Assembly: GCA_025965275.1 (NCBI GenBank)
Contig: JAOPXG010000117.1
Coordinates: 1 to 51,604, forward strand
Source: Nocardioides sp.
Lineage (GTDB): Bacteria > Actinomycetota > Actinomycetes > Propionibacteriales > Nocardioidaceae
Direction: 5' to 3'
DNA length: 51,604 nt
Part shown: one piece after another, positions 13,441-36,077 of the stretch
How positions within the stretch are numbered: the stretch's first letter is position 1
Layout of the letters: each line of letters begins with the position of its first letter
Notes under the pieces: model-generated
The model's database searches: none
The model's input: the letters and a program-made list of their open reading frames with translations, nothing else
Told to the model about the DNA's origin: nothing
Program-made: the position numbers and the translations under genes

Positions 13441-13441
13441 C

Positions 13442-14176
13442 ATGACCGCCGTACTCACGCACTTCCCACGCCAGCAGGAGGCGTACGACGCCCTCGGGGT
13501 CGTCATCGACCCGGAGCTCGACGAGCCCATCACCGACCTGGGCTTCGTCCGGTCCGTGGCCGTCTCCGGCTCCGACGTCGAGGTCCATCTGCGGCTGCCC
13601 ACGTCGTTCTGCGCACCCAACTTCGCCTACCTGATGGCCTCCGACGCCAAGGACGTGCTGGTCGCGCTGCCGTGGACCGGGCGCGTGGTGGTCGAGCTGG
13701 ACGACCACCACGACTCCGACATCATCAACCGGGGGCTGGCCGCGGACGCCGGCTACCGCGGCACCTTCCGTCACGAAGCGGAGGAGGACCTCGACGAGCT
13801 CCGACTCACCTTCCAGCGCAAGGCGCACACGGCGGCGATCGAGCGGTGCCTGACCGCGTTGCTGCGCGCCGACCCCGAGCTCGACGTCGAAGCGGTCGGG
13901 TCGGTCCGGCTGGGTGACCTGCCGTCCGACGAGCACGCCGAGGCACTGCGCCGGCGCCGTACGACGCTCGGGCTGCCGGACTCCGCCGACGCGCTCGTCC
14001 TGGTCGACCACGAGGGCCGAGCGCCCGCCGACGTGCCGATGGCGCTGCGTCGGGCCAGGTCCACCCGGATCTCGATCGACGGCAACGCCCACTTCTGCCG
14101 GGGCCTGCTCGGCACCCGCTACCCCGACGAGCCCACCTTCGTCCCCCTCAGCGAGATCAAGGAGCACACGTCATGA
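13442..14176 (+). CDS. DUF59/MIP18-family metal-sulfur cluster assembly protein
   Basis: 244 residues from ATG 13442, one base after the previous stop. The N-terminal DUF59 domain (~10-100) contains VVIDPELDEPITDLGFV and the conserved Cys of RLPTSFCAPNFAYLM; a ~140-residue C-terminal extension has a second cysteine near the end (AHFCRGLLGTR). MIP18-type proteins help mature Fe-S or diiron proteins. This extended form is the one seen beside propane-type monooxygenases. The stop overlaps the ADH start (ATGA), indicating coupling. Confidence 0.82.
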   Translation: MTAVLTHFPRQQEAYDALGVVIDPELDEPITDLGFVRSVAVSGSDVEVHLRLPTSFCAPNFAYLMASDAKDVLVALPWTGRVVVELDDHHDSDIINRGLAADAGYRGTFRHEAEEDLDELRLTFQRKAHTAAIERCLTALLRADPELDVEAVGSVRLGDLPSDEHAEALRRRRTTLGLPDSADALVLVDHEGRAPADVPMALRRARSTRISIDGNAHFCRGLLGTRYPDEPTFVPLSEIKEHTS

Positions 14177-16393: not shown

Positions 16394-17173
16394 TCAGTCG
16401 TGAGCTCCCACCACGTCCTGGTCCCAGTCGATGACGGAACCGGTGACGACCCCGCTGCGATCTGACAGGAGCAGGACGACCAGCGCGGCCGCATCGTCAG
16501 GCTGACCGAGCTTGCCCATCGGCAGACCGGCAGCAGCTTTCTCGAGCCAGTCGTCCCCCGCCCCGTGGAACTCGCGCTGGACGGCGTCCTCCCCCTCGGT
16601 CTCGGTCCACCCGATGTTGATGCCGTTGACGCGGATACGGTCCCACCGGTGAGCGTGGGCAGCGTTGCGGGTCAGACCGACCAGGCCGGCCTTGGCCGCG
16701 ACGTACGGCGCGAGATACGGCTGACCACCGTGTGCCGACATCGTGATGATGTTGACGATCGATCCCGGCTCTCGCCGGCCGACCATGTCCCGGACTGCGG
16801 CCTGCATCAGGAAGAAGGGTCCACGGAGATTCACCGCGACGTGCTGGTCGAACAGCTCGGGCGTGGTGTCGAGCAGGGTCCCTCGACTGGTGAGGCCGGC
16901 GGCGTTCACGAGTCCGTCGATCCGACCGAATCGTCGTACCACCTCGTCGACGCTCGCCGCGGCCTGATCCGTATCGCCGACGTCGGCCGGCACGAACAGC
17001 GCCTCGCGTTCTCCCTGCTTCTGCAGCTCAGCTGCGAATGCCTGTCCGACGTCCTCCCGACGGCCGGACACCGCCACCGTGGCGCCGGCGTCGACGGCTG
17101 CGCGAGCCACCGCTGCTCCCATGCCCTGGGTGCCGCCGCTGACCAGGACGACCTTGCCCTCCAGCAGGTTCAC
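16394..17173 (-). CDS. SDR-family oxidoreductase
   Basis: 259-residue classical short-chain dehydrogenase: SGGTQGMG cofactor motif (TGxxxGxG type), GLVNAAGL (NNAG equivalent), and the catalytic Ser in ITMSAHG with YVAAK (Tyr-x3-Lys). The basic SGRRED after strand 2 suggests NADP(H). It is translationally coupled to the PhyH dioxygenase gene upstream (4-bp overlap at 17170-17173), so it probably oxidises or reduces that enzyme's product. It ends 120 bp from the convergent ABM gene. Confidence 0.88.
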   Translation of the reverse strand: MNLLEGKVVLVSGGTQGMGAAVARAAVDAGATVAVSGRREDVGQAFAAELQKQGEREALFVPADVGDTDQAAASVDEVVRRFGRIDGLVNAAGLTSRGTLLDTTPELFDQHVAVNLRGPFFLMQAAVRDMVGRREPGSIVNIITMSAHGGQPYLAPYVAAKAGLVGLTRNAAHAHRWDRIRVNGINIGWTETEGEDAVQREFHGAGDDWLEKAAAGLPMGKLGQPDDAAALVVLLLSDRSGVVTGSVIDWDQDVVGAHD

Positions 17174-18369
17174 CGCGAGGTCGCCGTCGAGCGCCGGCGG
17201 CCGTACTCGCTCAACAGACCGGCCAGCTCCTCCGGCGATGAGCCAGCGGCGAGGGCGTCGCGGACGATCTCGGCCTGCGACCTCGGAGTCAGACCACCCA
17301 CGGGCTGGTCGAGGTCGAGGTTGGTGGGGAACGGATATCCCTCGGCGGATGCCGCGAGTGCGTTCTCGACCGCGGACTCCCCCGCGCCGGCCGCTGCCTT
17401 CGCCAGCAGCGAGGGATAGACGGCGCGCGTGACCCGGTCACGGTCCACGGTCTCCATGGCGCGGCCGAACGCAGACGAGACCTGGAGCAGGTTGGCGACG
17501 CGCTGGATGTCCGTGGAGACGTTGGTCCCGGCACCGTGGAACAGCGCCGGGTTGAAGAACACCGCGTCGCCCTTGCTCAGCGGGAGCTGTACGTAGTGCT
17601 CCAGGAAGTAGGAGCGGAACTGTGGCAGCCGCCACCCGAGGTAGCCGGGGACGAACTGGTGTGAGTACGGCAGGTACATCGTCGGGCCGCTCTCGACGGG
17701 CATGTCCGAGTGGGCGACCGCACCCTGCAGCGTCAGCACGGGCGAGAGCAGGTGGACGTGCGTCGGGTAGCGCTCGACGAGGTCGTTCTCCAGGAACCCG
17801 AGGTGGTAGTCACGGTGCGGGTCCTGAGCCTTGCCGCCGGGGCGTACGACGTTGACCTGCGACGTGACCTGGTAGCCGGGCCCCAGCCACGCCCGGGACA
17901 CCAGAGCGACGACGTCGTTGGCGTAGTAGTCCACGAACGTGTCGGGGTCGCGGACCGCCAACTTCTCCAAGGCGTTCCACACGCGGTCGTTGGCCCCCGC
18001 CTTGGCGAAGTGGTCTCCTACCGATCCGCCCGCAGCCTTCTCGTCCGCGATGACTGCGTCGAACGCCGCAGTCACCCGGTCGATGACTGCTGCGTCGGGG
18101 AACGCCCCGCGAATGGCCACGACCCCGGGCCCGTCGGTGAGCGCCCGCACCAGCTCGGCGGCCACGGCTTCCTCGCCCTGCGGGCTGCTCGCCTCGGCGT
18201 GGAGCCGAGCCGCGTCGTAGATCAGCACGTTGTCGACGACCTCGTCGGCGTACGGGAAGTCGGTCAGATCGGTGCGCTGCTCCACCAGGGCGACCAGGTC
18301 GTCGAGGTTGCAGTCGGCGGTACGAAGGCGCGCGGTGCCGTGGCTCACGCGGGTGGGAGAGGTGGTCAT
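17170..18369 (-). CDS. Phytanoyl-CoA dioxygenase (PhyH) family protein
   Basis: 399 residues from ATG 18369, selected because GGAGG is 8 bp upstream. The non-heme Fe(II)/2-oxoglutarate triad is visible: HxD in DPHRDYHLGF, a distal His in FFNPALFHGAGTNVS, and a 2-oxoglutarate-binding Arg in DIQRVANLL. PhyH enzymes hydroxylate or demethylate small molecules using O2. The neighbouring LacI regulator, SDR and inositol-type dehydrogenases suggest a polyol or methylated-polyol substrate (inference). Its promoter carries an 18-bp element shared with the promoter at 19564. Confidence 0.85.
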   Translation of the reverse strand: MTTSPTRVSHGTARLRTADCNLDDLVALVEQRTDLTDFPYADEVVDNVLIYDAARLHAEASSPQGEEAVAAELVRALTDGPGVVAIRGAFPDAAVIDRVTAAFDAVIADEKAAGGSVGDHFAKAGANDRVWNALEKLAVRDPDTFVDYYANDVVALVSRAWLGPGYQVTSQVNVVRPGGKAQDPHRDYHLGFLENDLVERYPTHVHLLSPVLTLQGAVAHSDMPVESGPTMYLPYSHQFVPGYLGWRLPQFRSYFLEHYVQLPLSKGDAVFFNPALFHGAGTNVSTDIQRVANLLQVSSAFGRAMETVDRDRVTRAVYPSLLAKAAAGAGESAVENALAASAEGYPFPTNLDLDQPVGGLTPRSQAEIVRDALAAGSSPEELAGLLSEYGRRRSTATSR

Positions 18370-19665: not shown

Positions 19666-20637
19666 ATGCGCATCGGACTGATCGGTCTCGGCCGGATCGG
19701 CTCCCTCCACGCCCGCACGCTGGCCGGCCGGGACGTGGTCGAGGAGCTCCTGGTCACCGACGCTCTGCCGGAGGCAGCCGAGCGCGTCGGCGGAGAGCTC
19801 GGGGCCACCGTGGTCGCCTCCCCCGATGACCTGCTGTCCGCGGGCGTCGACGGCGTGGTCATCGCCTCCCCGACGGGCACCCACCCCGACCTCCTGGTGA
19901 CCTTCGTGGAGGCAGGGATCCCGACCTTCTGCGAGAAGCCGGTCGCTCTCCAGTACGCCGACGCCAGGACCGTCCTCGAGAGAACCGTCGGCCGGGACAC
20001 ACCCGTCCAGATCGGCTTCCCGCGGAGGTTCGACGCAGGCTTCGTGCGTGCTCGCGACGACCTCCGCTCGGGCGTGCTCGGACGACTGCACACCCTTCGT
20101 TCGACCACCCTGGACCCGGCCCCACCTCCACCGGAGTACGTCGCCGGTTCCGGCGGGATCTTCCGCGACAGCGCGATCCACGACTACGACGTGATCCGCT
20201 GGGTGACAGGTCACGAGGTCATCGAGGTCTACGCAGCCGGGTCAGCCCGGATCGTCGACCACATCGCCGCTGCTGCCGACGCCGACACGGCGGCCGCAGT
20301 GCTGACCCTCGAGAGCGGCGCGCTTGCGGTGGTCTCGAACACCCGGACGAACGGCCGCGGCCACGACGTACGGCTGGAGCTCCTGGGCACGCTCGACTCC
20401 GTGGCCGCGGGGCTCGACGACACCCTGCCGCTCCGATCCGCGGAGGCTGGCGTCAGCTTCCCTGCCGGCCCTCCGGCGGTGTTCTTCATGGACCGGTTCG
20501 CCGACGCGTTCCGTCGCGAGCTGACCACCTTCACCGAGGTCGTCGCCGGGGTCCGACCCTCGCCGTGCACGGTCGACGACGCCGTGGCGGCCAGCCTGAT
20601 CGCCGAAGCGTGCACCCGCTCGTGGCACGAGCGTTGA
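19666..20637 (+). CDS. Gfo/Idh/MocA oxidoreductase (inositol dehydrogenase-like)
   Basis: 323 residues. N-terminal Rossmann motif GLIGLGRIGSLHA, CEKPVAL with the catalytic-lysine EKP, and the C-terminal-domain motif DSAIHDYDVIRW whose His and Asp match IolG-type catalytic residues. It probably oxidises a cyclitol or sugar hydroxyl with NAD(P). It is the only gene behind the TGAGGC promoter and is followed by a separate LacI regulator. One of five members of this family in the window. Confidence 0.85.
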   Translation: MRIGLIGLGRIGSLHARTLAGRDVVEELLVTDALPEAAERVGGELGATVVASPDDLLSAGVDGVVIASPTGTHPDLLVTFVEAGIPTFCEKPVALQYADARTVLERTVGRDTPVQIGFPRRFDAGFVRARDDLRSGVLGRLHTLRSTTLDPAPPPPEYVAGSGGIFRDSAIHDYDVIRWVTGHEVIEVYAAGSARIVDHIAAAADADTAAAVLTLESGALAVVSNTRTNGRGHDVRLELLGTLDSVAAGLDDTLPLRSAEAGVSFPAGPPAVFFMDRFADAFRRELTTFTEVVAGVRPSPCTVDDAVAASLIAEACTRSWHER

Positions 20638-20733: not shown

Positions 20734-21747
20734 ATGGCAGATCACCCCGGCGCCCGCCAGCCGCGCCGCGTGACCCTCGCCGACGTCGCCCAGGAAGCGG
20801 GCGTGTCCCGCGCACTGGTGTCGATCGTGATGCGCGACGTCGCCGGCGCAAGCCCGGCGACACGGGAACGCGTCATGGTCGCGGCCAATGCTCTTGGCTA
20901 CCGACCCGACGCACGGGCACGCGCGCTGGCCGGGCAGGGCTCCAAGCTGATCGGGGTCATGTTCGGCGTCACCGGGACCTTCCACCTCGACCTCCTCGAT
21001 GGTCTGTACGCCGCGGCGGAGGACGCCGGCTACGGCCTGATCCTGAGCGCGTTGACTCCCGGCCGGGACGAGGCGCGAGCCGTGCAGTCCCTCCAGGACT
21101 TCGGGTTCGACGCCCTGGTGATGCTCGAGCCACCCACCCCGATGCCCCTCATGGCGGGCGAGCTCCCTCTGGTTGTCGTCGGCTGGCACGTCGACCACCC
21201 GGCCGTCGACTCGGTGCGCACGTCTGACCAGCACGGCATGAGCCTCGCGGTCGCACATCTCTCCGCCCTGGGTCACCGACGCATCGTGCACGTGGACGGC
21301 GGCGACACCCCCACCGGCGTCCACCGACGTGAGGCGTACGTGGCCGCCATGCGCGCCGCAGGACTCGAGGGCGACATCGCCGTCCTGTCGGGCGGCGTCT
21401 CCCAGCTCGAGGGCCAGCGCGCGGCTCGACGCCTGCTCGACGAGCGAGACCTCCCGACAGCCGTGATCGGCTACAACGACGACGTGGCCGTAGGCGCGCT
21501 CGGGGTCCTCGCCCTGCACGGTGTCGACATCCCTGGCCGGGTCTCCGTGCTGGGCTGGGACGACAATGCGATCGCCCGACTGTCCCCGACGCAGCTGACG
21601 ACGGTCGCCCAGCAACCGCGCGAGATGGCACGGCTCGGGGTGGAGCGTCTGATCGCTCGGATCAACGGCGAGGCGGTGTCCGACACTGACATCGTCCTCG
21701 AACCGGAGCTCCTGGTGCGATCCACCACCGCCGCGCCCGCGGAGTGA
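20734..21747 (+). CDS. LacI-family transcriptional regulator
   Basis: 337 residues: HTH at ~13-35 (VTLADVAQEAGVSRALVSIV), hinge ANALGYRPDARARALA, and a sugar-binding domain with GHRRIVHVDGG, AVIGYNDDVAVGAL, and the usual C-terminal SVLGWDDNAIARL and LTTVAQQPREMARLG. It is a typical repressor of a sugar operon. It lies 74 bp upstream of the operon at 21822-25866, whose promoter contains a perfect 16-bp LacI-style palindrome (21787-21802), the probable operator. Confidence 0.9.
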   Translation: MADHPGARQPRRVTLADVAQEAGVSRALVSIVMRDVAGASPATRERVMVAANALGYRPDARARALAGQGSKLIGVMFGVTGTFHLDLLDGLYAAAEDAGYGLILSALTPGRDEARAVQSLQDFGFDALVMLEPPTPMPLMAGELPLVVVGWHVDHPAVDSVRTSDQHGMSLAVAHLSALGHRRIVHVDGGDTPTGVHRREAYVAAMRAAGLEGDIAVLSGGVSQLEGQRAARRLLDERDLPTAVIGYNDDVAVGALGVLALHGVDIPGRVSVLGWDDNAIARLSPTQLTTVAQQPREMARLGVERLIARINGEAVSDTDIVLEPELLVRSTTAAPAE

Positions 21748-21750: not shown

Positions 21751-21802
21751 TTGACATGTCCTGACATTCGCTCATACCGTCGTCACACTAGAGCGCTCTA
21801 GT
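21751..21802 (+). promoter_or_regulatory. Doubly regulated promoter of the P450 operon
   Basis: TTGACA (21751-21756) and TACCGT (21775-21780, 18-bp spacing) form the promoter. TGTCCTGACA (21757-21766) lies in the spacer and matches the TGTC-NN-GACA sites assigned to the GntR regulator. ACTAGAGCGCTCTAGT (21787-21802), a perfect palindrome with the central CG typical of LacI operators, covers the transcription start. Two repressors would thus gate the operon. Confidence 0.65.
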
Positions 21803-21821: not shown

Positions 21822-22847
21822 ATGAGCAGCACACCCGTCCGTATCGGACTGATCGGCGCCGGCCGGATCGGGGCGTCGCACGCGTCGGTCATCGTCCGGC
21901 GAGTCCCGGAGGCCACGCTGGTGGCTGTCGCCGACCCCCGGCCCGGCGCGGCGGCCGCCGTCGCTGATCCGCTCGGGGCGAGGGCCGAGACGAGCGTCGA
22001 CGCCGTCCTGGCTGCGACGGACGTCGATGCCGTGGTCATCGCCGCGTCCTCGACCGCGCACTCGGAGCTGATCGTGGCTGCCGCCGAGGCGGGGAAGCAC
22101 GTGTTCTGCGAGAAGCCCGCCGGCATGACGCTGGACGAGATCGCCCTGGCGCAGGCGGCGACAGAGAAGGCCTCCGTCCGCTTTCAAGTCGGCTTCAACC
22201 GCCGCTTCGCCGCGGACTTCACCGCTGCGCGCGACGCGGTCACCCAGGGCCGGATCGGCTCCGTGCAGCTGATGCGCTCCCTCACGCGTGACCCGGGCAC
22301 CGGCCCGACCGACCCGGCGTCCATCCCCGCCTGGACGATCTTCACCCAGACCCTGATCCACGACTTCGACACGCTCAACTGGCTCAACCCCGGAGCGCGC
22401 GCAATCGACGTGATCGCCACCGCCGACGCCCTGGTCAAGCCCGACTTCAAGGAGTCCGGCCTGCTGGACACCGCGGTCGTGGTGATCCGCTATGACAACG
22501 GGGCCCTCGCGATTGCCGAGGCCAGCTTCGCGGCGGCCTACGGCTACGACGTACGTGGCGAGGTGTTCGGCTCCGGCGGCATGGTCACCGCGGGTGACGG
22601 GTCGACCTCGTCGATGCGCCTGTACGACGAGACCGGACGCTCCGCGAGCACCGCCCGCGGAGACACCGAGCTGATGATCGACGCCTACACCGGCGAGTTC
22701 GCGGAGTTTGCCGTCGCGATCCAAGAATGCCGCCGGCCATCCGTCGGTGGGGACGACGCATGGGCGGCATTCGCGATCGCCCAGGCGTGCATCGAGTCGA
22801 TCCAGACCGGCACTCGCACGGCCGTGGCACAGGTGGACCGGCCATGA
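21822..22847 (+). CDS. Inositol 2-dehydrogenase-like Gfo/Idh/MocA protein
   Basis: 341 residues: GLIGAGRIGASHA Rossmann motif, CEKPAGM, VGFNRRFAADF, and TLIHDFDTLNW carrying the catalytic Asp/His pair of IolG enzymes. The C-terminal half has YGYDVRGEVFGSGG, as in inositol dehydrogenases. It probably oxidises a cyclitol with NAD. First gene of an operon with a TIM-barrel isomerase (4-bp overlap) and the P450 fusion; the start ATG 21822 is 20 bp after the LacI palindrome. Confidence 0.87.
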   Translation: MSSTPVRIGLIGAGRIGASHASVIVRRVPEATLVAVADPRPGAAAAVADPLGARAETSVDAVLAATDVDAVVIAASSTAHSELIVAAAEAGKHVFCEKPAGMTLDEIALAQAATEKASVRFQVGFNRRFAADFTAARDAVTQGRIGSVQLMRSLTRDPGTGPTDPASIPAWTIFTQTLIHDFDTLNWLNPGARAIDVIATADALVKPDFKESGLLDTAVVVIRYDNGALAIAEASFAAAYGYDVRGEVFGSGGMVTAGDGSTSSMRLYDETGRSASTARGDTELMIDAYTGEFAEFAVAIQECRRPSVGGDDAWAAFAIAQACIESIQTGTRTAVAQVDRP

Positions 22848-23623
22848 GCTTCACCCTGGCCGTCTGCTCGGAGATGGTGTTCACCGACCTGCCGCTGCTC
22901 GAGCGCATCCGCAGGATCCACGAAGCGGGCTTCGCGGTCGAGATCTGGGACTGGTCCAGCAAGGACGCCGATGCCCTGGTGGCGACCGGAGCACGGTTCA
23001 CGTCGATGACCGGCTACCTGTCCGGCGACCTGGTCACCGCTCCGGGTGCGGACAAGCTGCTCGAGACCGCCGAGGAGTCGATCGCGTTCGCGAAGGCCAT
23101 CGGCTGCCCGAGCCTCAACCTGCACGGCACCGGGCTCGGCGAGGGCGGCCTTCCCGTCGTCCCGGTCGACATCGTCACCGGCGAGATGTGGATGGCGGCG
23201 CAGCGCGCGCTGACGCGGGTCGCCGCGTTGGGTGACAGCTACGGCGTCACCTTCGTGCTGGAGAACCTCAACACGGAGGTCGACCATCCGGGCACGCCGT
23301 TCGCCCGCGCCGCGGACACGCTCGCCTTGATCCAGGCCGTGGGCAGCCCTCACCTGCGACTCAACCTGGACCTCTACCACGCCCAGATCGGCGAAGGGAA
23401 CCTCGTTGAGCTGATACGGCGCTGCGCGCCGTACCTCGGCGAGGTCCAGATCGCCGACGTCCCCGGCCGCTGCGAACCGGGGACCGGCGAGGTCAACTGG
23501 CCGTTCGTCGCACGCGCCCTGGCCGATGCCGGCTACGACGGCGTCGTCGCCATGGAGGCCTTCGCCAGTGGCGACTCCGACCTCGCGCTGGGCCGGTTTC
23601 GCACCGCCTTCACCCTCCCCTGA
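22844..23623 (+). CDS. Hydroxypyruvate-isomerase-like TIM-barrel protein
   Basis: 259 residues of the xylose-isomerase-like TIM-barrel superfamily. EIWDWSSKD near the N-terminus, metal ligands expected in FVLENLNTEVDHPG (Glu), LNLDLYHAQIGEGN (Asp, His) and VVAMEAFASGD (Glu), plus HIQ/QIAD-type QIADVPGR. The arrangement is that of Hyi/OtnI isomerases. It is translationally coupled to the dehydrogenase upstream, so it probably isomerises the keto-sugar or inosose product. Confidence 0.82.
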   Translation: MSFTLAVCSEMVFTDLPLLERIRRIHEAGFAVEIWDWSSKDADALVATGARFTSMTGYLSGDLVTAPGADKLLETAEESIAFAKAIGCPSLNLHGTGLGEGGLPVVPVDIVTGEMWMAAQRALTRVAALGDSYGVTFVLENLNTEVDHPGTPFARAADTLALIQAVGSPHLRLNLDLYHAQIGEGNLVELIRRCAPYLGEVQIADVPGRCEPGTGEVNWPFVARALADAGYDGVVAMEAFASGDSDLALGRFRTAFTLP

Positions 23624-23652: not shown

Positions 23653-25866
23653 ATGTCCCTCAAGCCGCTCGTCGCGCCGGTCGTCTACGACCCGTTCTCC
23701 GACGCCTTCAAGGACGACCCGTTCCCCGTCTACCAGTGGCTGCGCGACGAGGCTCCGGTCTACCGCAGCGAGAAGTGGGGCTTCTACGCACTCTCGCGCT
23801 ACGAGGACTGCCATCAGGCGCTGCTCGATCCGGCGACCTTCATCAATCACCCCGGCATCGACCTCGACGCGACGAACGACCAGGGTGGCGAGGGCAACCT
23901 CCCCAACATCGATAACCCGCGCCACGACGAGCTGCGGGCGGTCGTGCAGCGGCAGTTCATGCCACGAAGCATCGCCAAGCTCGAGGACGACGTCCGCCGC
24001 ATCACTACTCACCTCGTGGACTCCTTCGCCGGTCGCGGCACCGCCGACATCGCCCAGGAGCTCTCCTGGCCGCTGCCGTACGAGGTCTTCTTCGACTTCC
24101 TCGGGCTTCCCCACGGCGAGGAGCGCACTCAGCTGATCCACTGGTCGCACGGGCTCAAGGACCGGGTGCCCGACGACGACCGACTCACCCCCCACGCGAT
24201 CGCCTGCACCGACAGCTCACGCGCCTACCTGGCCGAGCTGCTGGAGGAACGCCGTAGGCGGCCGCGCCGCGACCTGCTCACCCACATCGTGCAGTCCGAC
24301 ATCGCCGGCGTCCCGTTCGCTCGGGAGCACATCGAACCGGCCTCGGAGATCGTCGGCCTCGTCTTCGGCCTCTACCTGGCCGGGATCGAGACGACCGCCG
24401 CGCTGATCTCGACGCTCTTCCAGGAGCTCGCGGCACGCCCCGACCACCAGCGTGCCCTTCGCGACGACCCGGGCCTGATCCCGGGCGCCGTCGAGGAAGG
24501 GCTGCGATTCCGCACGCCGCTGCAGCTCACGGTGCGCACCGCCACCCGCGACGTCGACCTGCACGGAGTGACCATCCCCGAAGGCGCTCGGGTGGCGATG
24601 GTGATCGGCGCGGCGAACCACGACGAGCGTCAGTTCGACCGCCCGCAGGAGTACGACGCGCTGCGGCCCGCGGCCCGGCACCTCGGCTTCGGCGAGGGCC
24701 TCCACGGCTGCCTGGGCAACCCGTTGGCGCGTCTCGAGGCACGCGTCGCCCTCGAGGTCGCCCTCCCCCGGCTCGGCGAGTTCCGCCTCGCGGGGCTCCC
24801 CCAGCGCTACCCCTCGACCCCCAACATGGCCGTGCTCGACCACCTGCCGACCTCCTTCTCTCCGCAGGACCCCGGGACCGCCTCCCGCGCCCAGCGCGCG
24901 GCCACGGCACGACGAGTCGGCGACACCGAGATCGTCCCGCTCGTGGTGCGCGAGCGTCACGAAGCCGCTGACGGCGTCGTCCTGCTGACCCTCGGCGACC
25001 CGGACGGCGGGGACCTGCACCCGTGGGAGCCCGGTGCCCACGTCGACCTGCTGCTCGGCAACGGGCTGACGCGTCAGTACTCGCTGTGCGGCGACCCCGC
25101 CGACCGCACGAGCTACCGGATCGGGGTGCTGCGTGAGCCGGCCGGTCGAGGCGGATCGGCGTACGTCCACGACGAGCTGGCGGTCGGGAGCCCGGTGCAG
25201 CTCCGCGGTCCGCGGAACCACTTCCGGCTCGAGCCTTCACCGCGGTATGTCTTCATCGCGGGCGGCATCGGAGTGACACCGATCCGCGTCATGGTCGAAG
25301 CGGCGGAGCGAGCCGGCGCGGACTGGACGCTGCTGTACGGCGGCCGGACGGGATCGTCGATGGCGTTCCTGAACGACCTCGCGGCGTACGGCGAGAAGGT
25401 GACCGTCCACCCCCAGGACACGCACGGCCTGCTCGACCTCGACGGCCTGCTCAGGTCTCCGCAGGCCGACACGATCGTCTACGTGTGCGGGCCGGGTGCG
25501 CTCCTCGACGCCGTCGAGGAACGCTGCGCGGCGTGGCCCGCTGGCACGCTGCATCTCGAGCGCTTCTCGGCCAAGGATCTCGCATCGCCGGTGCTCGACG
25601 AGCCGTTCGAGGTCGAGCTCGCGCGGACCGGGCAGGTGCTGGTGGTGCCGACCGACCGAGCGGTCGTCCACGTCCTCGACGAGGCCGGCGTGCAGGTCCT
25701 GACGTCGTGCAGCGAAGGCAAGTGCGGCACCTGCGAGGTCGGCGTGCTCGGCGGACTGCCCGACCACCGCGACTCCGTACTCACCGGCGACGAGCGGGCC
25801 GCCAACGACCGGATGATGGTGTGCGTGTCCCGCTCGACCACGAAGCGGCTCGTCCTCGACCTGTGA
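23653..25866 (+). CDS. Self-sufficient cytochrome P450-reductase-ferredoxin fusion
   Basis: 737 residues in three parts. (1) P450, ~1-410: I-helix AGIETT (E246, T247, T248), K-helix EGLR, heme motif FGEGLHGCLG with Cys353. (2) FMN/NAD(P)H reductase, ~420-640: RQYSLCG flavin motif, GGIGVTPIRVM and VYVCGPGALLDA. (3) Plant-type 2Fe-2S ferredoxin, ~645-737: CSEGKCGTC (C686, C691, C694) and C724. This is the CYP116B/PFOR-type architecture, able to hydroxylate or O-demethylate without partner proteins. It is 29 bp behind a cyclitol dehydrogenase and isomerase and under the inositol GntR/LacI-type promoter, which suggests a methylated or otherwise substituted cyclitol as substrate (inference). Confidence 0.9.
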   Translation: MSLKPLVAPVVYDPFSDAFKDDPFPVYQWLRDEAPVYRSEKWGFYALSRYEDCHQALLDPATFINHPGIDLDATNDQGGEGNLPNIDNPRHDELRAVVQRQFMPRSIAKLEDDVRRITTHLVDSFAGRGTADIAQELSWPLPYEVFFDFLGLPHGEERTQLIHWSHGLKDRVPDDDRLTPHAIACTDSSRAYLAELLEERRRRPRRDLLTHIVQSDIAGVPFAREHIEPASEIVGLVFGLYLAGIETTAALISTLFQELAARPDHQRALRDDPGLIPGAVEEGLRFRTPLQLTVRTATRDVDLHGVTIPEGARVAMVIGAANHDERQFDRPQEYDALRPAARHLGFGEGLHGCLGNPLARLEARVALEVALPRLGEFRLAGLPQRYPSTPNMAVLDHLPTSFSPQDPGTASRAQRAATARRVGDTEIVPLVVRERHEAADGVVLLTLGDPDGGDLHPWEPGAHVDLLLGNGLTRQYSLCGDPADRTSYRIGVLREPAGRGGSAYVHDELAVGSPVQLRGPRNHFRLEPSPRYVFIAGGIGVTPIRVMVEAAERAGADWTLLYGGRTGSSMAFLNDLAAYGEKVTVHPQDTHGLLDLDGLLRSPQADTIVYVCGPGALLDAVEERCAAWPAGTLHLERFSAKDLASPVLDEPFEVELARTGQVLVVPTDRAVVHVLDEAGVQVLTSCSEGKCGTCEVGVLGGLPDHRDSVLTGDERAANDRMMVCVSRSTTKRLVLDL

Positions 25867-25888: not shown

Positions 25889-26659
25889 TCAGGCGGTCAG
25901 CAGGTTGATCTCGAACGCGTAGCGGCTGGCGGCGTACACGTGGTCGCCCCACTCGACGACATCGCCACGGTCGTCGAAGCTGACCCGTTGCATCGTGAGC
26001 ACGGCGGACCCACGTGGCTCTCCGAGCAACCGTGCCTCCGCGACACTGGCGGAACGGGCGCCGACGGTCTGGACGGCCGAGTGCAGGTGCACGCCGCGCG
26101 AACGGAGCAGCTCGTACAAGCCCCCGCGCTCCAGGTCATCGGAACCGAAGGTCGCCAGGCTTTGGGGCAGGTAGTTGATCATCCGGGCGATCGGTCGGTC
26201 CTGTGCGCTCCGCAGACGCTCGATGCGGACGACCTCGTCACCGAAGCCGACCCCCAGCTTCTCGGCGACGGTGGCATCCGCCTCGACCGTGTCGAAGGAC
26301 AACAGCTCGGTGGTCGGTGACTGACCGGTACTGGCCAGGTCGTCGTACAGGCTGGTGAGCTCGAGTGGGCGACGAACCTTCGGCTGCACGACCCGGGTGC
26401 CGATGCCGCGCCTGCGGACGACCAGGCCCTTGTCGACCAGGTACTCCATGGCCCGCCGCATCGTGGGCCGTGACAGGCCGAGGCGCTTGGCCAAGACGAT
26501 CTCGTTCTCGAAGAGCGTGCCGGGAGGAATGCGTCCCGTGCTGATCGAGTCCTCGAGATGCTGAGCGACCTGGAAGTACAGCGGCACCGGGCTCGTCCGG
26601 TTGATCGCGAACCCCCGAAGCGACTCTTCGAGAGCGTCATCGATCTGGCGCGTAGTCAT
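25889..26659 (-). CDS. GntR-family (HutC/UTRA) regulator, probable inositol regulator
   Basis: 256 residues from ATG 26659. N-terminal winged helix ~20-90 (VPLYFQVAQHLEDSI, GTLFENEIVLAKRLGLSR, YLVDKGLVVRRRG) and a UTRA effector domain (~105-250) with VVRIERLRSAQDRPIARM, AEARLLGEP and ASRYAFEINLL. HutC members bind sugar phosphates or acids as inducers. Five copies of TGTC-NN-GACA, at 21757, 26671, 28536, 33344 and 33433, occur in front of this gene and the surrounding cyclitol operons, so it is the likely master repressor. It converges on the P450 gene with a 22-bp gap. Confidence 0.88.
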   Translation of the reverse strand: MTTRQIDDALEESLRGFAINRTSPVPLYFQVAQHLEDSISTGRIPPGTLFENEIVLAKRLGLSRPTMRRAMEYLVDKGLVVRRRGIGTRVVQPKVRRPLELTSLYDDLASTGQSPTTELLSFDTVEADATVAEKLGVGFGDEVVRIERLRSAQDRPIARMINYLPQSLATFGSDDLERGGLYELLRSRGVHLHSAVQTVGARSASVAEARLLGEPRGSAVLTMQRVSFDDRGDVVEWGDHVYAASRYAFEINLLTA

Positions 26660-27469: not shown

Positions 27470-28467
27470 CTAGACGGTCACGGCGGCGGCGGATTTGAGG
27501 ACGTCCGCTGCGATCGTGAGGCCCTCGACGGGGCCGAACGCGGTGTCCTCGTGCTCGATGTTGATCGCGATCTCGGGATCAACGGCGTGCAGGGCCTGCA
27601 CGAAACGGGTCCAGAAGGCGACATCGTGGCCCTGCCCGAGTGCGACGAAGTCCCATGCCGAGTCCTGCGGCCACTCGTTGACGTACTCGTGACCGCCGAG
27701 GTGAACCGGATCCTCGTCCGGCGACAGTCGGCGGAAGCGCTCGTCGAGGACACCGTAGATCCGCGCGTACTCATCGTTGATCCGCACGTCCTTGGCAGCC
27801 GCGTGGACGACCAAGGGACCGAGGTATTCGATCGCTGCGATCGGATCCATGCCCTGCCAGAAGAGGTGCGAGGGGTCCATCTCCGCCCCGACGTTGGTGG
27901 CACCGCACCGTTCGACGAGGCGCTTGAGGGTCGGCGGGTTGAAGACGACGTTCTGCGGGTGCATCTCGATGGCGACCGTGACGCCGTGGTCGGCAGCGAG
28001 GGCGTCGATCTCCTTCCAGAACGGGACCACGACTTGTTCCCACTGGTACTCCAGGACGTCGAGAGCGCCGGAGTTCCACGCGTTGACGATCCAGTTCGGC
28101 ACTGTGGAGCCGGGCTCCCCTCCGGGAAGTCCGGACATGGTGACCACTCGCGTCTGGCCCAGCGCACCCGCCGCGCGGATCGCGCGTCGCAGGTCTGACG
28201 CATGCTTCTCGCCGACCGCGGGATTGGGGTGCAGTGGGTTGCCGTTCGCGTTGAGGCCGGCGAGCGCCACTCCCTTGTCGGCGAAGACCGCGAGGTAGTC
28301 GTCGCGAGCGCTCTGGCTGGCGATGACGTCGTCGATCGGGATGTGGACGGGTGGAAGGAAGCCACCTGCGTTGATCTCTGCCGCGTTGAGGCCGAGGGAG
28401 GCGATCACGTCCAGCGCGTCGGGCAGCATCGGTCGTGGAGGATCGCGGTGTAGACGCCGAGCTTCAT
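27470..28467 (-). CDS. Sugar phosphate isomerase/epimerase (TIM barrel), N-terminal frameshift
   Basis: About 332 residues if repaired. ATG 28467 with GGAG 7 bp upstream encodes MKLGVYTAILHDR, the expected opening of this inosose isomerase/dehydratase-like family, but the frame then breaks: the remainder (MLPDALDVIASLGLNAAEIN onward) is in another frame from 28429. One missing base near 28430 explains it. As written, the intact frame could only start at ATG 28429 (319 residues) or without an RBS further out. Metal ligands are visible in AIEMHPQN (Glu), AEMDPSHLFW (Asp, His), HAAAKD and INIEHED. Sequencing error or recent mutation cannot be separated. Confidence 0.72.
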
Positions 28468-29799: not shown

Positions 29800-30204
29800 T
29801 CAGGGCAGTGGCGCCTTGACCACGAGCACCGGCACGTTGGCCTCCAGGATCACCGTCTGCGTCACGCTGCCCAGGATCGCCTTGCCGACGGGGGACCGAC
29901 GACGGGCACCGATCACCAGCAGCTCCGCTCCCACCTGATCCGCCAGAGCCACCAGCTTGCCGCCGATGCTGGGCGTCGCAGAGGTGACCAGGTGGAGCTT
30001 CCATTCCAGGGTCAGCTCCTTGCCCAGAGCCCGCTCCATGTCGTCGGCGACACCGGCGCGATACGCCTCGGTGCGGTCGGCATCGACGGACTCGACCACG
30101 TGCAGCACGGCGAGGTCGGTGTCCCTGTTGCAGGCTTCGCGCACCGCCTCCCGCAGGGCGATTGCTGTCGTGGGCGAGACCTGGTGTGCAACCGCGACAG
30201 TCAT
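29800..30204 (-). CDS. Universal stress protein (UspA) coupled to ABC importer
   Basis: 134-residue single UspA domain: [30 protein letters not shown] (the G-2x-G-9x-G-S/T ATP-binding motif in slightly altered form) and [11 protein letters not shown] at the end. It is translated from ATG 30204, which overlaps the stop of the ABC ATPase by 4 bp, so it is made together with the importer. It may modulate the transporter or bind a nucleotide signal; this is inference from linkage only. Confidence 0.85.
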
Positions 30205-31016
30205 CGCTGCAGCTCGTGCGAGAGCTCGGCCAGCTCGTCACCGCCGGCCATCTGGCGAGTGAGCTCGTCCAGCGTGACGTCGCTGCGCCGCTTGTCCAGC
30301 ACGGCCCTGCCCAGCTTGAGGATGACGAAGTGGTCTCCGACGAGATAGGCGTGGTGCGGGTTGTGGGTGATGAAGACGACGCCCAGGCCGGCGTCCCTGG
30401 CTGCGGCGGTGTACTTGAGCACCACTCCGGACTGCTTGACACCCAGGGCTGCGGTGGGCTCGTCGAGGATCAGGACTCGAGCGCCGAAGTAGACGGCTCG
30501 CGCGATCGCCACGCACTGGCGCTGGCCGCCGGACAGCTCACCGATGGGCTGATCGATGTCCTTGACCACGATCCCCATCTTGCGCAGCTCCTCGTCGGCG
30601 ATCCGCTTCATCTCCTTGACCTTCATCCCGGAGAAGGGCAGTCGTCCCTTGGTCATCTCGGAGCCGAGGAAGAAGTTGCGCCACACCTCCATCAACCCGA
30701 CGACAGCGAGGTCCTGGTAGACCGTCGCGATGCCGTGGTCGAGCGCCTCGCGGGGCGAGGAGAAGTGCACCTCCTTCCCGTCCACCTTCAGGCTCCCCTC
30801 GTTGTGCGGGTGCAGACCCGAGATGATCTTGATCAAGGTCGACTTGCCGGCTCCGTTGTCGCCCAGCACGCCGGTGACCTCTCCGGCTCTCACGGTCAGG
30901 TTGATGCCCCGGAGCGCGCGGATGGCCCCGTAGCTCTTGCCGACGTCCGTCATCTCCACCAGGGCCTCGCCCTGGGAGAGGTCGGGGTCGGCGTGCTCGC
31001 TCAGGGTGTCGGTCAT
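30201..31016 (-). CDS. Sugar ABC transporter ATP-binding protein (CUT2 type)
   Basis: 271 residues from ATG 31016. Walker [11 protein letters not shown]-loop TVYQDLAVV, signature LSGGQRQ, Walker [13 protein letters not shown] and H-loop FITHNPHH. It has a single ATPase domain, like FrcA-type proteins, rather than the double RbsA type. It would power the permease encoded 2 bp upstream with the lipoprotein at 32165. In this context the cargo is probably myo-inositol or a related cyclitol. Confidence 0.9.
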
Positions 31017-31018
31017 GA

Positions 31019-32086
31019 CTAACCCACCTTCCTCAGGGTCGAGAGCTTCTTGACGTACAGGTTCACGAGGACGGCGAGCAGGAGCATGATCCCGAGGAAC
31101 GCACGGAACCAGTTCGGGTCCCAGCCGGCGTAGACGATGCACAGGTTGGTCATGCCGAAGATGAACGATCCGATCGCGACGCCGATCGCGTTGCCGTAAC
31201 CGCCCGTCAGCAGCGTGCCACCCACGACTGCCGCGATGATGTAGAGGAACTCGTTGCCCACGCCGTTGCCGGCCTGGAGCGTGTTGAAGCGGTACAGGGT
31301 GTGCATGCCCATGAACCAGCCGAGGAAGGAGACTGTCATGAACAGGCCGACCTTCACCTTCAGGACGGGGACACCGACAGCTCGCGCACTGTCCGCGCTG
31401 CCACCGACGGCGTAGATCCAGTTGCCGATCTTGGTGCGGGACAGCACCCAGGTCGCCAGGGCCACGAAGATGAACCACCACAGGACCGTGATCGAGATCC
31501 GCACCGAGCCGATCTCGAAGTTGTGCGCGAAGATCCAGCTCAGGCTGTCGTAGCCGTCCATCCGGTTGATGTTGGGCGTGGACACCGAGCCGGTGATGAT
31601 CTTGGTCAGACCCAGGTTGACGCCCTGGAGGACGAAGAAGCTGCCCAGAGTGATCAGGAAGCTAGCGATCCCCGTCTTCATCACCAGGTATCCATTGAGG
31701 AACCCGATGGCCAGGGCGCCCACCAAGGAGACCAAGGCACCGACCCACAGGTTCACGCCGAGCTCGTAGCTCAGCATCGCGTTGGCGAGTCCGGCGGAGG
31801 TGACCATGACGCCCGCGGAGAGGTCGAACTCTCCTCCGATCATCAGCATGCCGACGCCGACCGCGACGATGCCGATCGTGGAGCTCTGGTACAGCACGGT
31901 GAGCAGCGAGTCGGCGGATCGGAAGGATGGGGCGACGATCAGGAAGAAGATCCCGATCACGATCGCCGCCACCAGGGCGCCGATCTCGGGGCGACCCAGC
32001 AGCCGGTTCATCACACCGAGCTGGACGCGATTGTCGGCCTCGGCAGGTGCTCCCAGGCCTGGTCTCTGAGCGGACGTCGTACTCAT
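31019..32086 (-). CDS. Sugar ABC transporter permease (CUT2 type)
   Basis: 355 residues from ATG 32086 (AAGGAG 7 bp upstream). About ten hydrophobic segments, with the family signature [40 protein letters not shown], and [15 protein letters not shown] near the C-terminus. RbsC/FrcB-like. It lies downstream of a hairpin (32119-32155) that separates it from the binding-protein gene and probably lowers its expression relative to that gene. Confidence 0.92.
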
Positions 32087-32118
32087 TTGGTTCTCCTTGG
32101 TTGAGGGATAGGCCAAAG

Positions 32119-32155
32119 GGGGCCGTCCGGGACGCTCATCGGCCCGGACGGCCCC
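32119..32155 (-). terminator. Intercistronic attenuating hairpin
   Basis: Perfect 13-bp stem GGGGCCGTCCGGG (32119-32131) and CCCGGACGGCCCC (32143-32155) with an 11-base loop, in the 78-bp gap between the binding-protein stop and the permease start. Such hairpins stabilise or terminate the upstream message, giving excess binding protein. Confidence 0.7.
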
Positions 32156-32164
32156 GCAGGTTGC

Positions 32165-33157
32165 TCAGCGCGTGTTGTTCTGCGCGAAGGGCAGGATGGT
32201 GTCGATGTTGGAGGAGTCGACGAACGACGGACCGGTGAGCACCGGCCCACCACCGCCGAGGTCGTTGCCGTTCTTCAGGTTCAGGTAGAGCGCCGTCACC
32301 GCCATGTAGCCCTGGACGTAGGGCTGCTGGTCGATCGAGAACTCGATCTTCCCGTCGGCGATGTCCTGAGCCGCATCGGCGTTCAGGTCGAAGGTCACCA
32401 GCTTGGCGTCACTGCCGGCGGCATCCATCGCCTGGAGAGCGTCCAGGGCGATCGGGGCGCCCAGCGTCACGATGTAGTCGATGGACGGGTCCTCGGTCAG
32501 CTTGGCCTGGAGCGAGGAGACCACGGCCGAGTCGTCGGCACCGTTGACCTGGATGTTCGTCGTCCCGGGAACGGCGCTCTTCACACCGGCGCAGCGAGCC
32601 TCGAGGGCGACCGATCCGGCTGCCTGGATGACGCACAGCACGTTCTTGCCGCCGTCGTCCGCGATCCGCTTGCCGGCGGTACTGCCGGCGAGGTTCTCGT
32701 CCGACCCGAAGTACATCTGCGCGCCGGTCTCGAGGTACTGGTCGATGCCGGAGTTGAACGCGACGACCGGGATGCCGGCGTCCCGCGCGTCCTTGACCGA
32801 GGCGGCCAGGGCGTCCGGGGTGGCCAGGGTCGTGGCGATGCCGTCGACCTTGGAGTCGACCGCGTTCTGGATCAGCGTGGCCTGCTTGGCGGGGTCAGGG
32901 TCGTTCGAGTACTTCAGGTCGATCCCGTAGTTGGCGGCCGCCTGCTGAGCCCCCGCCTTGATCTTGTCCCAGAACGTGTCGCCGGGGGTCTCGTGGGTCA
33001 CCATGGCGATGGTGTAGCCGGAGTTGTCGCCGCTGCCACCACCACTGCTGGTGGAGGTGGTCTCCTCCTTGCCGCCGCCGCTGCAGGCGGTCACGCCGAT
33101 GGCGACAGCCGCAACGATCGCGAGGGCAGCCGCTTTTCGCACTCGGGTCTTCTTCAT
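32165..33157 (-). CDS. Sugar ABC transporter substrate-binding lipoprotein
   Basis: 330 residues from ATG 33157 (AAAGGAA upstream; an in-frame ATG at 33178 is an alternative). Signal peptide with lipobox GVTAC at ~27-31, then a Ser/Gly linker and a type-1 periplasmic-binding fold: IAMVTHETPGDTFWDKI, DGIATTLATPDALAASV, PVVAFNSGIDQY, LVTFDLNADAAQDI and FSIDQQPYVQGYMAV. Members with this pattern bind inositol, ribose or fructose. It is the first gene of the importer operon, divergent from iolA, under the shared GntR-site region. Confidence 0.9.
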   Translation of the reverse strand: MKKTRVRKAAALAIVAAVAIGVTACSGGGKEETTSTSSGGGSGDNSGYTIAMVTHETPGDTFWDKIKAGAQQAAANYGIDLKYSNDPDPAKQATLIQNAVDSKVDGIATTLATPDALAASVKDARDAGIPVVAFNSGIDQYLETGAQMYFGSDENLAGSTAGKRIADDGGKNVLCVIQAAGSVALEARCAGVKSAVPGTTNIQVNGADDSAVVSSLQAKLTEDPSIDYIVTLGAPIALDALQAMDAAGSDAKLVTFDLNADAAQDIADGKIEFSIDQQPYVQGYMAVTALYLNLKNGNDLGGGGPVLTGPSFVDSSNIDTILPFAQNNTR

Positions 33158-33332
33158 GATCCGTGGTGTTCCTTTCATGGTGAACACGCGCCTCTGTCAC
33201 GGCCTGCCGTGGTGGCGGACGGGAAGTCTCGGCCGGGGTCTCGGACGAATTCGAATTCCATCCGTCGCGGCCCTGACGTTCCGGACCGCCGAATGTGTGG
33301 ACCGTCACAGCCTTGCCCTGGGTCGCACGTGA

Positions 33333-33353
33333 TGTCAATACTTTGTCCTGACA
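33333..33353 (-). promoter_or_regulatory. GntR-type site before the importer operon
   Basis: TGTCCTGACA at 33344-33353, with the flanking bases ATGTCAGGACAAA identical over 13 bp (on the opposite strand) to the site at 33432-33444. A minus-strand TTGACA (33338-33333) adjoins it as a possible -35 for the binding-protein gene, though I see no convincing -10. Confidence 0.6.
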
Positions 33354-33432: not shown

Positions 33433-33477
33433 TGTCAGGACAAATCATTGACAGCATGGCAGTTGACTGGGTTTGAT
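33433..33477 (+). promoter_or_regulatory. iolA operon promoter with GntR-type site
   Basis: TGTCAGGACA (33433-33442) lies 5 bp before TTGACA (33448-33453); TTTGAT (33472-33477) at 18-bp spacing serves as -10. The gene starts at 33549 behind GGAGG, leaving a ~65-base leader. The site would block polymerase at -35, as for a repressor released during growth on inositol. Confidence 0.65.
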
Positions 33478-33548: not shown

Positions 33549-35045
33549 GTGAGAACTGTGCAGCACTGGATCGCCGGAAAGACCACGACCGGGAGCTCCG
33601 ACCGCACTGCGCCGGTCTTCAACCCAGCGACCGGTCAGCAGCAGGCCGAGGTCCTCCTCGGCTCCGTGGGCGACGTGGAGTCCGCCATCGCGGCGGCTCG
33701 AGACGCCTTCGGCTCGTGGTCGCAGACCTCGGTCAGCCGACGGGCGAAGATCCTCTTCACCTTCCGCGAGCTGGTCAACGCCCACGCCGCCGAGCTGGCC
33801 GAGCTGATCACCGACGAGCACGGCAAGGTGCTCTCGGACGCGATGGGCGAGGTCCAGCGTGGTCTCGAGGTCGTGGAGTTCGCGTGCGGGATCCCGTCCC
33901 TGCTCAAGGGCGACTTCTCCGACCAGGTCTCCACCGACGTCGACACCTTCTCCTTCCGGGAGCCGCTCGGCGTGGTCGCCGGCATCACGCCGTTCAACTT
34001 CCCGGCGATGGTGCCGATGTGGATGTTCCCGGTCGCCATCGCCTGCGGGAACACCTTCGTCCTCAAGCCCAGTGAGCGCGACCCCTCCGCGTCGATGAGG
34101 CTGGCGGAGCTGTGGCAGGAAGCCGGCCTGCCGGACGGCGTCTTCAACGTCGTGCACGGCGACAAGGTCGCCGTGGACACGATCCTCGACTCCCCCGACG
34201 TCGCCGCGGTGTCGTTCGTGGGCTCGACCCCCATCGCCCGCTACATCCACGAGCGGGCCACCGCCACGGGGAAGCGCGTCCAGGCCCTCGGCGGAGCCAA
34301 GAACCACGCGATCATCCTCCCGGACGCCGACGTCGACTTCGCCGCCGACCATCTCGCCGCTGCCGCCTTCGGCTCGGCTGGCGAGCGCTGCATGGCGATC
34401 TCGGCGGCGGTGGCGGTCGGCACCGCAGGTGACGCCATCGTCGCCGCCGTCAACCAACGCGCCCGGGACGTCAAGGTGGGCTCCGGTCGCGACAGCGACA
34501 GCGAGATGGGCCCCGTGGTGACCCGGCAGGCACAGGAGCGGATCGTCGAGCTGATCGGCACCGGCGAGTCCCAGGGCGCCGACGTCACGGTCGACGGTCG
34601 GACCCTCGAGGTGGCGGGACACGAGGAGGGGTTCTTCGTCGGGCCCACCGTGATCGACGGCGTCACCACCGAGATGGACGTCTACACCGAGGAGATCTTC
34701 GGTCCGGTCCTGTCGGTCCTGCGCGTCGACACCGTGGATGAGGCCATCGCGATGATCAACGCCAACCCCTACGGCAACGGCACCGCCATCTTCACGTCCA
34801 GCGGCGAGGCCGCCCGACGGTTCCAGCGCGGCGTGCACGTCGGCATGATCGGCATCAACGTGCCGGTGCCGGTGCCGATGGCCTACTACTCCTTCGGCGG
34901 GTGGAAGGACTCCCTCTTCGGCGACAAGCACGTCCACGGCCCCGAGGGCGTCGGCTTCTACACCCGCGCGAAGGTCGTCACCGCACGCTGGCCGCGCACG
35001 AGTGCCGACAGCGAGGCCAGCTTCCACTTCCCCACGTCCAAGTAG
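33549..35045 (+). CDS. iolA: Methylmalonate/malonate-semialdehyde dehydrogenase (CoA-acylating)
   Basis: 498 residues from GTG 33549 (GGAGG 7 bp upstream). ALDH fold of the MmsA type: HWIAGKTT at the start, TPFNFPAMVPMWMFPVAIA, VSFVGSTPIARYI, ALGGAKNHAIILPDAD, and catalytic Cys in FGSAGERCMA; it ends GWKDSLFGD-type. It converts malonate semialdehyde, the three-carbon end product of inositol degradation, to acetyl-CoA and CO2. First gene of the core iol operon. Synonym mmsA. Confidence 0.93.
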   Translation: MRTVQHWIAGKTTTGSSDRTAPVFNPATGQQQAEVLLGSVGDVESAIAAARDAFGSWSQTSVSRRAKILFTFRELVNAHAAELAELITDEHGKVLSDAMGEVQRGLEVVEFACGIPSLLKGDFSDQVSTDVDTFSFREPLGVVAGITPFNFPAMVPMWMFPVAIACGNTFVLKPSERDPSASMRLAELWQEAGLPDGVFNVVHGDKVAVDTILDSPDVAAVSFVGSTPIARYIHERATATGKRVQALGGAKNHAIILPDADVDFAADHLAAAAFGSAGERCMAISAAVAVGTAGDAIVAAVNQRARDVKVGSGRDSDSEMGPVVTRQAQERIVELIGTGESQGADVTVDGRTLEVAGHEEGFFVGPTVIDGVTTEMDVYTEEIFGPVLSVLRVDTVDEAIAMINANPYGNGTAIFTSSGEAARRFQRGVHVGMIGINVPVPVPMAYYSFGGWKDSLFGDKHVHGPEGVGFYTRAKVVTARWPRTSADSEASFHFPTSK

Positions 35046-35101
35046 GCCGCGGGCGCCCGCGCATCCACGACATCCCGACCTCACGACCGCAAGGACACCT
35101 C

Positions 35102-36025: not shown

Positions 36026-36077
36026 CCCACCCGGATCCCCCACCAACCATCGAGAACTGCCAGGAACAGAGAGAGAA

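Follow-up and report, generated by a model that had tools for sequence, protein, structure and literature searches.

What is a self-sufficient cytochrome P450 doing in the middle of an actinobacterial inositol gene cluster? This question was raised by a stretch of DNA of 51,604 nucleotides from Nocardioides sp. (contig JAOPXG010000117.1 of assembly GCA_025965275.1; here called the window), which spans an entire contig of an assembly fragmented into 416 contigs (4.38 Mb in total, 87% complete) and carries the P450 gene at positions 23653 to 25866 (+). The analysis left little doubt that the P450 belongs to a cyclitol regulon, and it leaned, less firmly, towards the P450 being a candidate methyl-cyclitol O-demethylase, the product of which would feed IolG-type dehydrogenases, a triosephosphate isomerase (TIM)-barrel isomerase, and the enzymes of the iol pathway. 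D-Pinitol would be the single most plausible substrate.

The P450 gene is a single open reading frame with an ATG start, encoding 737 amino acids, and the protein comprises, approximately, a heme domain (residues 1 to 405), a flavin mononucleotide (FMN)/NADH phthalate-dioxygenase-reductase domain (residues 425 to 640), and a C-terminal [2Fe-2S] ferredoxin domain (residues 655 to 737), with Pfam matches to p450, NAD_binding_1, and Fer2. The initial annotation had described a complete P450-reductase-ferredoxin fusion, and this description was borne out: the heme-ligand motif FGEGLHGC contains Cys353, the ferredoxin cysteines are C686, C691, C694, and C724, and the ExxR and AGIETT motifs are located at residues 282 to 285 and 243 to 248, respectively. 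In a phmmer search, residues 10 to 737 aligned to the intact fused P450 structures 6kbh and 6laa, and the same two structures ranked first in a structure search with an AlphaFold2 model (predicted local distance difference test score, 82; predicted template modeling score, 0.58), which confirmed the domains but is unreliable for their placement relative to one another. At the sequence level, the protein has both the fused domain order and the catalytic and cluster residues of the class VII (P450-PFOR) enzymes.

The P450 gene is indeed the third gene of an operon, as had been annotated. The tightly packed unit starts with IolG-B (21822 to 22847, +), a Gfo/Idh/MocA protein resembling inositol dehydrogenases (300 bits on TIGR04380, below the cut-off of 355), continues after a 4-bp overlap with TIM-B (22844 to 23623, +), and has the P450 gene 29 bases beyond TIM-B. 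TIM-B is a xylose-isomerase-like TIM barrel that resembles hydroxypyruvate and 2-oxo-tetronate isomerases at scores below the curated cut-offs, and its role may be that of an inosose isomerase or epimerase. Further downstream, the core iol genes (33558 to 42807, +) encode MmsA, an IolE-like protein, IolG, a TIM barrel, IolC, a Cgl0159-like protein, IolB, and IolD; among these, IolB, the IolC N-domain, and IolD exceeded the curated cut-offs, and the IolE and IolG models scored below theirs, the core IolG having 428 of the 540 bits set as the cut-off for bifunctional inositol/D-chiro-inositol dehydrogenases.

The P450 operon and the core iol genes are also connected by their promoter regions. 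An exact copy of the GntR-type box TGTCCTGACA was located ahead of IolG-B (21757 to 21766, +), and two further exact copies (33344 to 33353 and 33433 to 33442, -) were located between the binding-protein gene of a sugar importer and mmsA; these three matches in the window compare with a chance mean of 0.14, and none of 100 shuffles reached three. A copy with one mismatch, at 26671, precedes the gene for a GntR/UTRA regulator (25889 to 26659, -; UTRA domain by Pfam), which likely reads the box. The earlier claim that the operon shares its GntR-type site with the core iol operon was therefore accurate as far as it went, but it had overlooked both a predicted LacI-type operator, the perfect palindrome ACTAGAGCGCTCTAGT (21787 to 21802, unstranded), between the GntR-type box and IolG-B, and the gene for the LacI-B regulator (20734 to 21747, +). 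Binding of the GntR and LacI proteins to these sites is predicted.

If the P450 had a function in the inositol cluster, its neighborhood might be conserved, and the initial annotation had proposed the linkage in other genomes as a check. Relatives were sought at E <= 1e-180. The P450 was present in 7 of 341 genomes of its own family (its own included) and in 5 of 249 genomes of the family of a Pseudonocardia metagenome-assembled genome (G698, included); a class-wide search yielded no new member, the two positive genomes among 394 being its own and G063. The 12 loci were those of the window, G698, G005, G063, G116, G007, G087, G568, G773, G796, G849, and G837; a further match, L010, on a contig as long as that of the G005 locus, was counted with it as one locus. 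In all 12, the P450 was a single open reading frame encoding 725 to 757 amino acids, in which Cys353, E282/R285, E246, T248, and the four FeS cysteines were invariant and position 247 was T or S. Identity of the 11 relatives to the window protein ranged from 48.8 to 80.4% for the heme domain and from 57.1 to 69.5% for the reductase.

To count linkage, a set of 21 inositol-related proteins was drawn from the window (importer, iol enzymes, four regulators, IolG-A and IolG-B, TIM barrels, Gfo, SDR, and PhyH), and homologues with at least 40% identity were sought no farther than 15 kb from the P450. Genes of this set or for inositol-type binding proteins were found in 10 of the 11 relatives, so that the linkage proved to be conserved. 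Seven relatives had at least five homologues (G796 and G849, 20 each; G773, 18; G698, 14; G837, 12; G568, 6; and G116, 5), and three had one, which in G005 and G063 was a binding protein of the inositol type and in G007, on a 9-kb contig, an iol TIM barrel. None of seven distant fused P450s (27 to 33% heme identity) had any inositol-set homologue; because the stretches available for them (8 to 22 kb) were shorter than most others, this control is weaker than its count. TIM-B was immediately upstream of the P450 in 5 of the 12 loci, in two layouts: IolG-B, TIM-B, and P450 in the window and G698, and PhyH, SDR, IolG-A, IolE-like, TIM-B, P450, and LacI in G773, G796, and G849. In G063 and G005, the P450 was accompanied by a LacI gene and a lone binding protein. 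These lone binding proteins were 63 to 71% identical to each other and to those of the iol loci of G063 and G048 (63 to 69% to the iol-locus proteins alone), and 45 to 50% identical to that of the window; the best solved match of the G063 protein was 4ru1. A lone binding protein paired with an oxygenase is what would be expected for a substrate that needs trimming before it enters the common pathway.

The predicted operator was likewise conserved. The perfect palindrome TRRANCGNTYYA occurred in 21 of 893 distinct upstream regions (a count that leaves out G773, G796, G849, and G837), and 20 of these 21 regions lie ahead of P450 units, IolG-B/TIM-B units, or an adjacent LacI gene, the exception being L073:8325. 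Nine of the 12 loci carry it upstream of the P450 or of the P450 transcription unit (window, G005, G063, G116, G087, G568, G773, G796, and G849). The G698 locus has a different palindrome, GATTAGCACGTGCTAATC; G837 showed, as judged by eye, only imperfect look-alikes of TRRANCGNTYYA, and the upstream-region search found no such palindrome ahead of the P450 of G007. Of 300 upstream regions, 60 had some perfect palindrome of at least 12 bases, so a palindrome by itself says little and the weight is on the specific motif; in the window alone, the operator motif with up to two mismatches was not above chance (two matches; mean, 0.68; 15 of 100 shuffles reached two). Across the loci analyzed (1,205,262 bases), the 12-mer TAGAGCGCTCTA had seven occurrences, whereas 10 resamplings gave an expectation of 0.0; five of the seven (window, G087, G773, G796, and G849) were ahead of the P450 or the operon containing it, and two (G773 and G849) were ahead of iolE operons. 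Because this sequence precedes both, the P450 and the inositol genes probably answer to a single regulator. At L036:6702 to 6723 in G005, a sequence close to the GntR-type box, CGTCCTGACA, was observed to run straight into a LacI operator, TGGAGCGCTCCA; this site precedes the LacI gene and lies where the binding-protein gene was called to start, as if the two regulators competed.

The P450 also co-occurred with the inositol pathway at the genome level. iolD was found in all seven other P450 genomes searched, in 67 of 198 family genomes, and in neither of two genomes with a distant fused P450. In the family draw, six of six carriers had iolD, versus 61 of the remaining 192 genomes (Fisher P = 0.0013, with kinship ignored), and in the remaining four carriers IolD was encoded inside the P450 locus itself.

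Chance neighborhood of the P450 and the inositol genes was rejected on the basis of the conserved linkage and operators. These same observations argue against an ordinary aromatic- or xenobiotic-degrading class VII enzyme, such as a CYP116B-like 2-hydroxyphenylacetate hydroxylase, that came to lie among inositol genes by accident. The reductase domain and the layout are those of CYP116B, and characterized CYP116B enzymes act on 2-hydroxyphenylacetate (PMC11889516). The heme domain, on the other hand, was only 28.7% identical to that of the fused P450 of Cupriavidus metallidurans CH34, and in the heme tree the eight P450 members included formed one clade (100/100) apart from it and from the other fusions, which makes the accidental aromatic enzyme highly improbable. 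We take the C. metallidurans protein to be CYP116B1. P450s of the same family share, by the rule of the nomenclature, at least 40% identity, and membership in CYP116B was rejected on the heme identity and the separate clade. In the reductase tree, the same eight members were on one side of a branch (89/84); four later members were left out of both trees, and the heme tree contained flagged long branches among the outgroup rows and did not place the sister group of the clade. The reductase was 45 to 58% identical to the reductases of other fusions (45% to that of CYP116B1). Because the reductases are so much closer than the heme domains, the simplest reading would be a known class VII reductase chassis carrying a heme domain of another, new family. 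Among 50 structural matches listed, the highest structural-alignment identity to a solved heme-only chain was 35% (TbtJ1). The polar residues D70, D72, N88, H166, K169, R171, Q291, and N391 were invariant across the clade and may hint at a polyol substrate if they line the pocket.

Which reaction would a P450 of this regulon catalyze? An O-demethylation is favored because a P450 that feeds an inositol pathway must yield free inositol and because methyl ethers are the common block in plant cyclitols. In the proposed route, a methyl-inositol would enter through an inositol-type ATP-binding cassette (ABC) importer; electrons from NAD(P)H would pass through FMN and the [2Fe-2S] cluster to the heme, which would hydroxylate the O-methyl group, and the resulting hemiacetal would collapse to formaldehyde and free inositol. 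D-Pinitol would thus give D-chiro-inositol, and pinitol is favored because the core IolG, with its score on the D-chiro-inositol model, and the isomerase-type TIM-B would fit this product. IolG-type dehydrogenases and the TIM-barrel isomerase would then supply the iol pathway with 2-keto-myo-inositol made from this inositol isomer, a mycothiol-dependent formaldehyde dehydrogenase would clear the formaldehyde, and the operon would be under the control of both the iol GntR-type regulator and LacI-B.

The linkage and operator evidence would fit another cyclitol oxidation equally well, such as hydroxylation of a deoxy-cyclitol (quercitol or viburnitol) or N-demethylation of an amino-cyclitol, with inositol or inosamine delivered to the iol pathway, and the window binding protein did match the rhizopine binding-protein model NF052284, at 177 bits, below its cut-off of 420. 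Given that the three-gene operon contains neither an aminotransferase nor a deaminase, and that plants contain more methyl-cyclitols than deoxy-cyclitols, we consider these oxidations unlikely, though by no means negligible. Alternatively, the P450 might act on an inositol conjugate, by stripping its aryl or alkyl decoration, or on a non-cyclitol methylated monosaccharide, the inositol genes being co-regulated through a shared transporter. The binding proteins of the family are sugar-type, and in G087 the P450 and LacI-B lie beside a different sugar-type ABC system, both of which agree with this explanation; it is nevertheless distinctly unlikely, as the operator ties the P450 directly to iolE operons in two genomes and at least five inositol-set genes surround the P450 in seven of the 11 relatives.

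A further alternative arises from a second oxygenase module in the window, in which a short-chain dehydrogenase/reductase (SDR) and a PhyH-family Fe(II)/2-oxoglutarate oxygenase (16394 to 18369, -) accompany IolG-A (19666 to 20637, +), a second IolG-like dehydrogenase that is linked to SDR and PhyH genes in other loci. The PhyH protein could be the methyl-cyclitol demethylase, with the P450 catalyzing a different, later, or parallel step, a scenario that overlaps the two preceding ones. PhyH, SDR, and IolG-A travel with iol genes whether or not a P450 is present, and the window PhyH protein has an HxD motif (HRD, 185 to 187) and a later His278. Set against this, where a different operator precedes the PhyH operon the P450 still has one to itself, and G005 and G063 pair the P450 with a LacI gene and a lone binding protein and lack PhyH nearby, as would suit a separate entry enzyme; we therefore rate the PhyH protein as rather unlikely to have this role. 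As a separate observation, the PhyH oxygenase, mostly with SDR and/or IolG-A, recurs in actinobacterial inositol clusters with and without the P450 (L067, L068, L070, L071, L076, L078, L080, L098, and L100, besides the window), and in G773, G796, and G849 the palindrome TAAAGCGCTTTA precedes the PhyH gene.

Several findings weigh against methyl-cyclitol O-demethylation by the P450, among them that the PhyH oxygenase of the supercluster could itself be the demethylase. In G087, LacI-B was the sole inositol-set homologue and no inositol enzymes were linked; the five linked homologues of G116 were accessory genes, none of them a core iol enzyme at the 40% threshold (the IolD- and MmsA-like neighbors there had 39% and 31% identity); and iolD lies ~300 kb from the P450 in G087 and ~650 kb in G063. 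The IolG-B/TIM-B pair occurred without a P450 in 20-kb stretches of G048, G019, and G038 and in the iol locus of G063, so that the pair does not need the P450, and the idea that the two are its obligate partners was weakened. The P450-associated LacI proteins are not one clade, as the tree needs two changes: LacI-B grouped with the P450-adjacent LacI proteins of G087 and G568 (100/100), the regulators of G698, G005, and G063 were apart from the others, and that of G116 had no resolved placement. A mycothiol-dependent formaldehyde dehydrogenase exceeded the cut-off in seven of eight P450 genomes searched, but its gene was on other contigs or far from the P450, none exceeded the cut-off in G698, and the enzyme is likely common in the group anyway and not diagnostic; no gene diagnostic of formaldehyde release was found in the P450 neighborhood. 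In addition, a sequence search of solved structures (60 of 205 matches listed) and the structure search (50 listed) gave, as the best heme-domain matches among those listed, steroid, fatty acid, macrolide, and aromatic P450s and not sugar P450s.

Other genes of the window surround these main elements. A second TIM barrel (27470 to 28429, -) is 66% identical to a copy that adjoins LacI-B and the P450 in G568 (L043:14387 to 15391) and may be a further pathway isomerase. A sugar ABC importer (ATPase, permease, and binding protein; 30201 to 33187, -) has a binding protein whose best solved match is 4ru1, which is termed a verified myo-inositol transporter protein in PMC10747050. The region from 10746 to 15207 encodes a regulator with an AAA+ lid domain, an amidohydrolase, an FeS-assembly-type protein, and a zinc alcohol dehydrogenase. 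Its gene order resembles that of propane monooxygenase clusters, although a search that covered some of the neighbors brought no monooxygenase gene to notice. Shortly past the inositol cluster are tRNA-Glu and tRNA-Gln genes (44607 to 44856, -), followed further on by a glutamyl-tRNA-synthetase-like gene (45880 to 47358), and an AmiS/UreI family transporter gene (49384 to 50001, -) is located close to the contig end.

The initial annotation knew of no fused P450 in this role, and none was described among the open-access papers listed, mostly the best matches of larger result sets. Neither a P450 demethylating inositol nor bacterial pinitol demethylation appeared in the titles or abstract beginnings of the open-access PMC matches listed, a set that mostly excludes subscription papers and is not proof of absence, and no bacterial enzyme removing a methyl group from inositol was described among these matches. 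The fused P450 of this inositol cluster is real and conserved and, as far as could be seen, undescribed. Methylated cyclitols make up a major share of the carbohydrates in many plants (PMC5889025), and clover exudate contained about equal values for D-pinitol (12.55) and myo-inositol (10.66) in one column of a table excerpt without its heading (PMC8386446). We judge it an evenly balanced proposition that the new heme family on a class VII reductase would be a dedicated actinobacterial methyl-cyclitol O-demethylase, providing the missing first step from pinitol and its kin, and that the PhyH-type oxygenase of the same superclusters would serve another cyclitol. If so, soil actinobacteria would consume plant methyl-inositols after removal of the methyl group by a P450, the range of class VII P450s would widen from aromatics and alkanes to polyols, and a candidate enzyme would be available for rare inositols made from pinitol. 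With a candidate that is encoded by one gene, brings its own redox partners, and has a readable regulatory circuit, methyl-inositol demethylation becomes directly testable.

Among known systems, the CYP116B enzymes (P450 RhF and CYP116B46) are alike in joining, in one chain, a P450, an FMN/NADH phthalate-dioxygenase reductase, and a C-terminal [2Fe-2S] domain, but they differ in the family of the heme domain and in context, the window P450 being encoded in an inositol cluster and CYP116B in an aromatic pathway. Two distant fused P450s, of G053 (L040:7820 to 11232) and Tsukamurella (L090:3704 to 7236), were observed to adjoin a gene for an aromatic ring-hydroxylating (Rieske-type) oxygenase, annotated in L090 and recognized by eye from the sequence in L040, and their fused reductase may serve both oxygenases. 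The fused P450 of Novosphingobium resinovorum HR1a (L092:3989 to 6154; heme domain, 33% identical) lies between two glycoside hydrolase genes, and a role on methyl-sugars is possible for it. A pinitol role was rejected for HR1a because of the low heme identity and the values for exudate: in the four columns of the table excerpt, pinitol was 12.55, 13.40, 15.07, and 13.99 and fructose fell from 5.58 to 0.21 and from 4.68 to 0.09 (PMC8386446), which, if columns 2 and 4 are those with the strain, indicates no use of pinitol.

The rhizopine (3-O-methyl-scyllo-inosamine) moc system is related by its methyl-cyclitol-type substrate and by a binding protein of the same broad family. It includes Gfo/Idh and TIM-barrel proteins, its mocDEF genes encode an oxygenase set different from the window P450, and MocR combines a GntR helix-turn-helix domain with an aminotransferase domain. 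The window GntR protein, by contrast, carries UTRA and matched the MocR model only at 6 to 88 of 479 positions. Rhizopine catabolism by mocCABRDEF requires the extra genes mocDEF (PMC10107442 and PMC6668481). CYP199A structures were among the matches listed, with 31 to 32% structural-alignment identity to the window P450. CYP199A4 and GcoA/B carry out P450 O-demethylation with release of formaldehyde, on aromatic substrates and with separate or different redox partners. The closest parallel in reaction that the initial annotation had invoked, the marine P450 that demethylates 6-O-methyl-D-galactose to galactose and formaldehyde, is a real precedent (PMC10033563); compared by reaction and not by sequence, it shares with the window P450 the proposed conversion of a sugar-like methyl ether into a hydroxyl group and formaldehyde. 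The analogy did not extend to the architecture or the setting, since the marine enzyme uses a separate ferredoxin and ferredoxin reductase in the context of porphyran degradation, whereas the window P450 is fused to its redox partners and lies in an inositol cluster.

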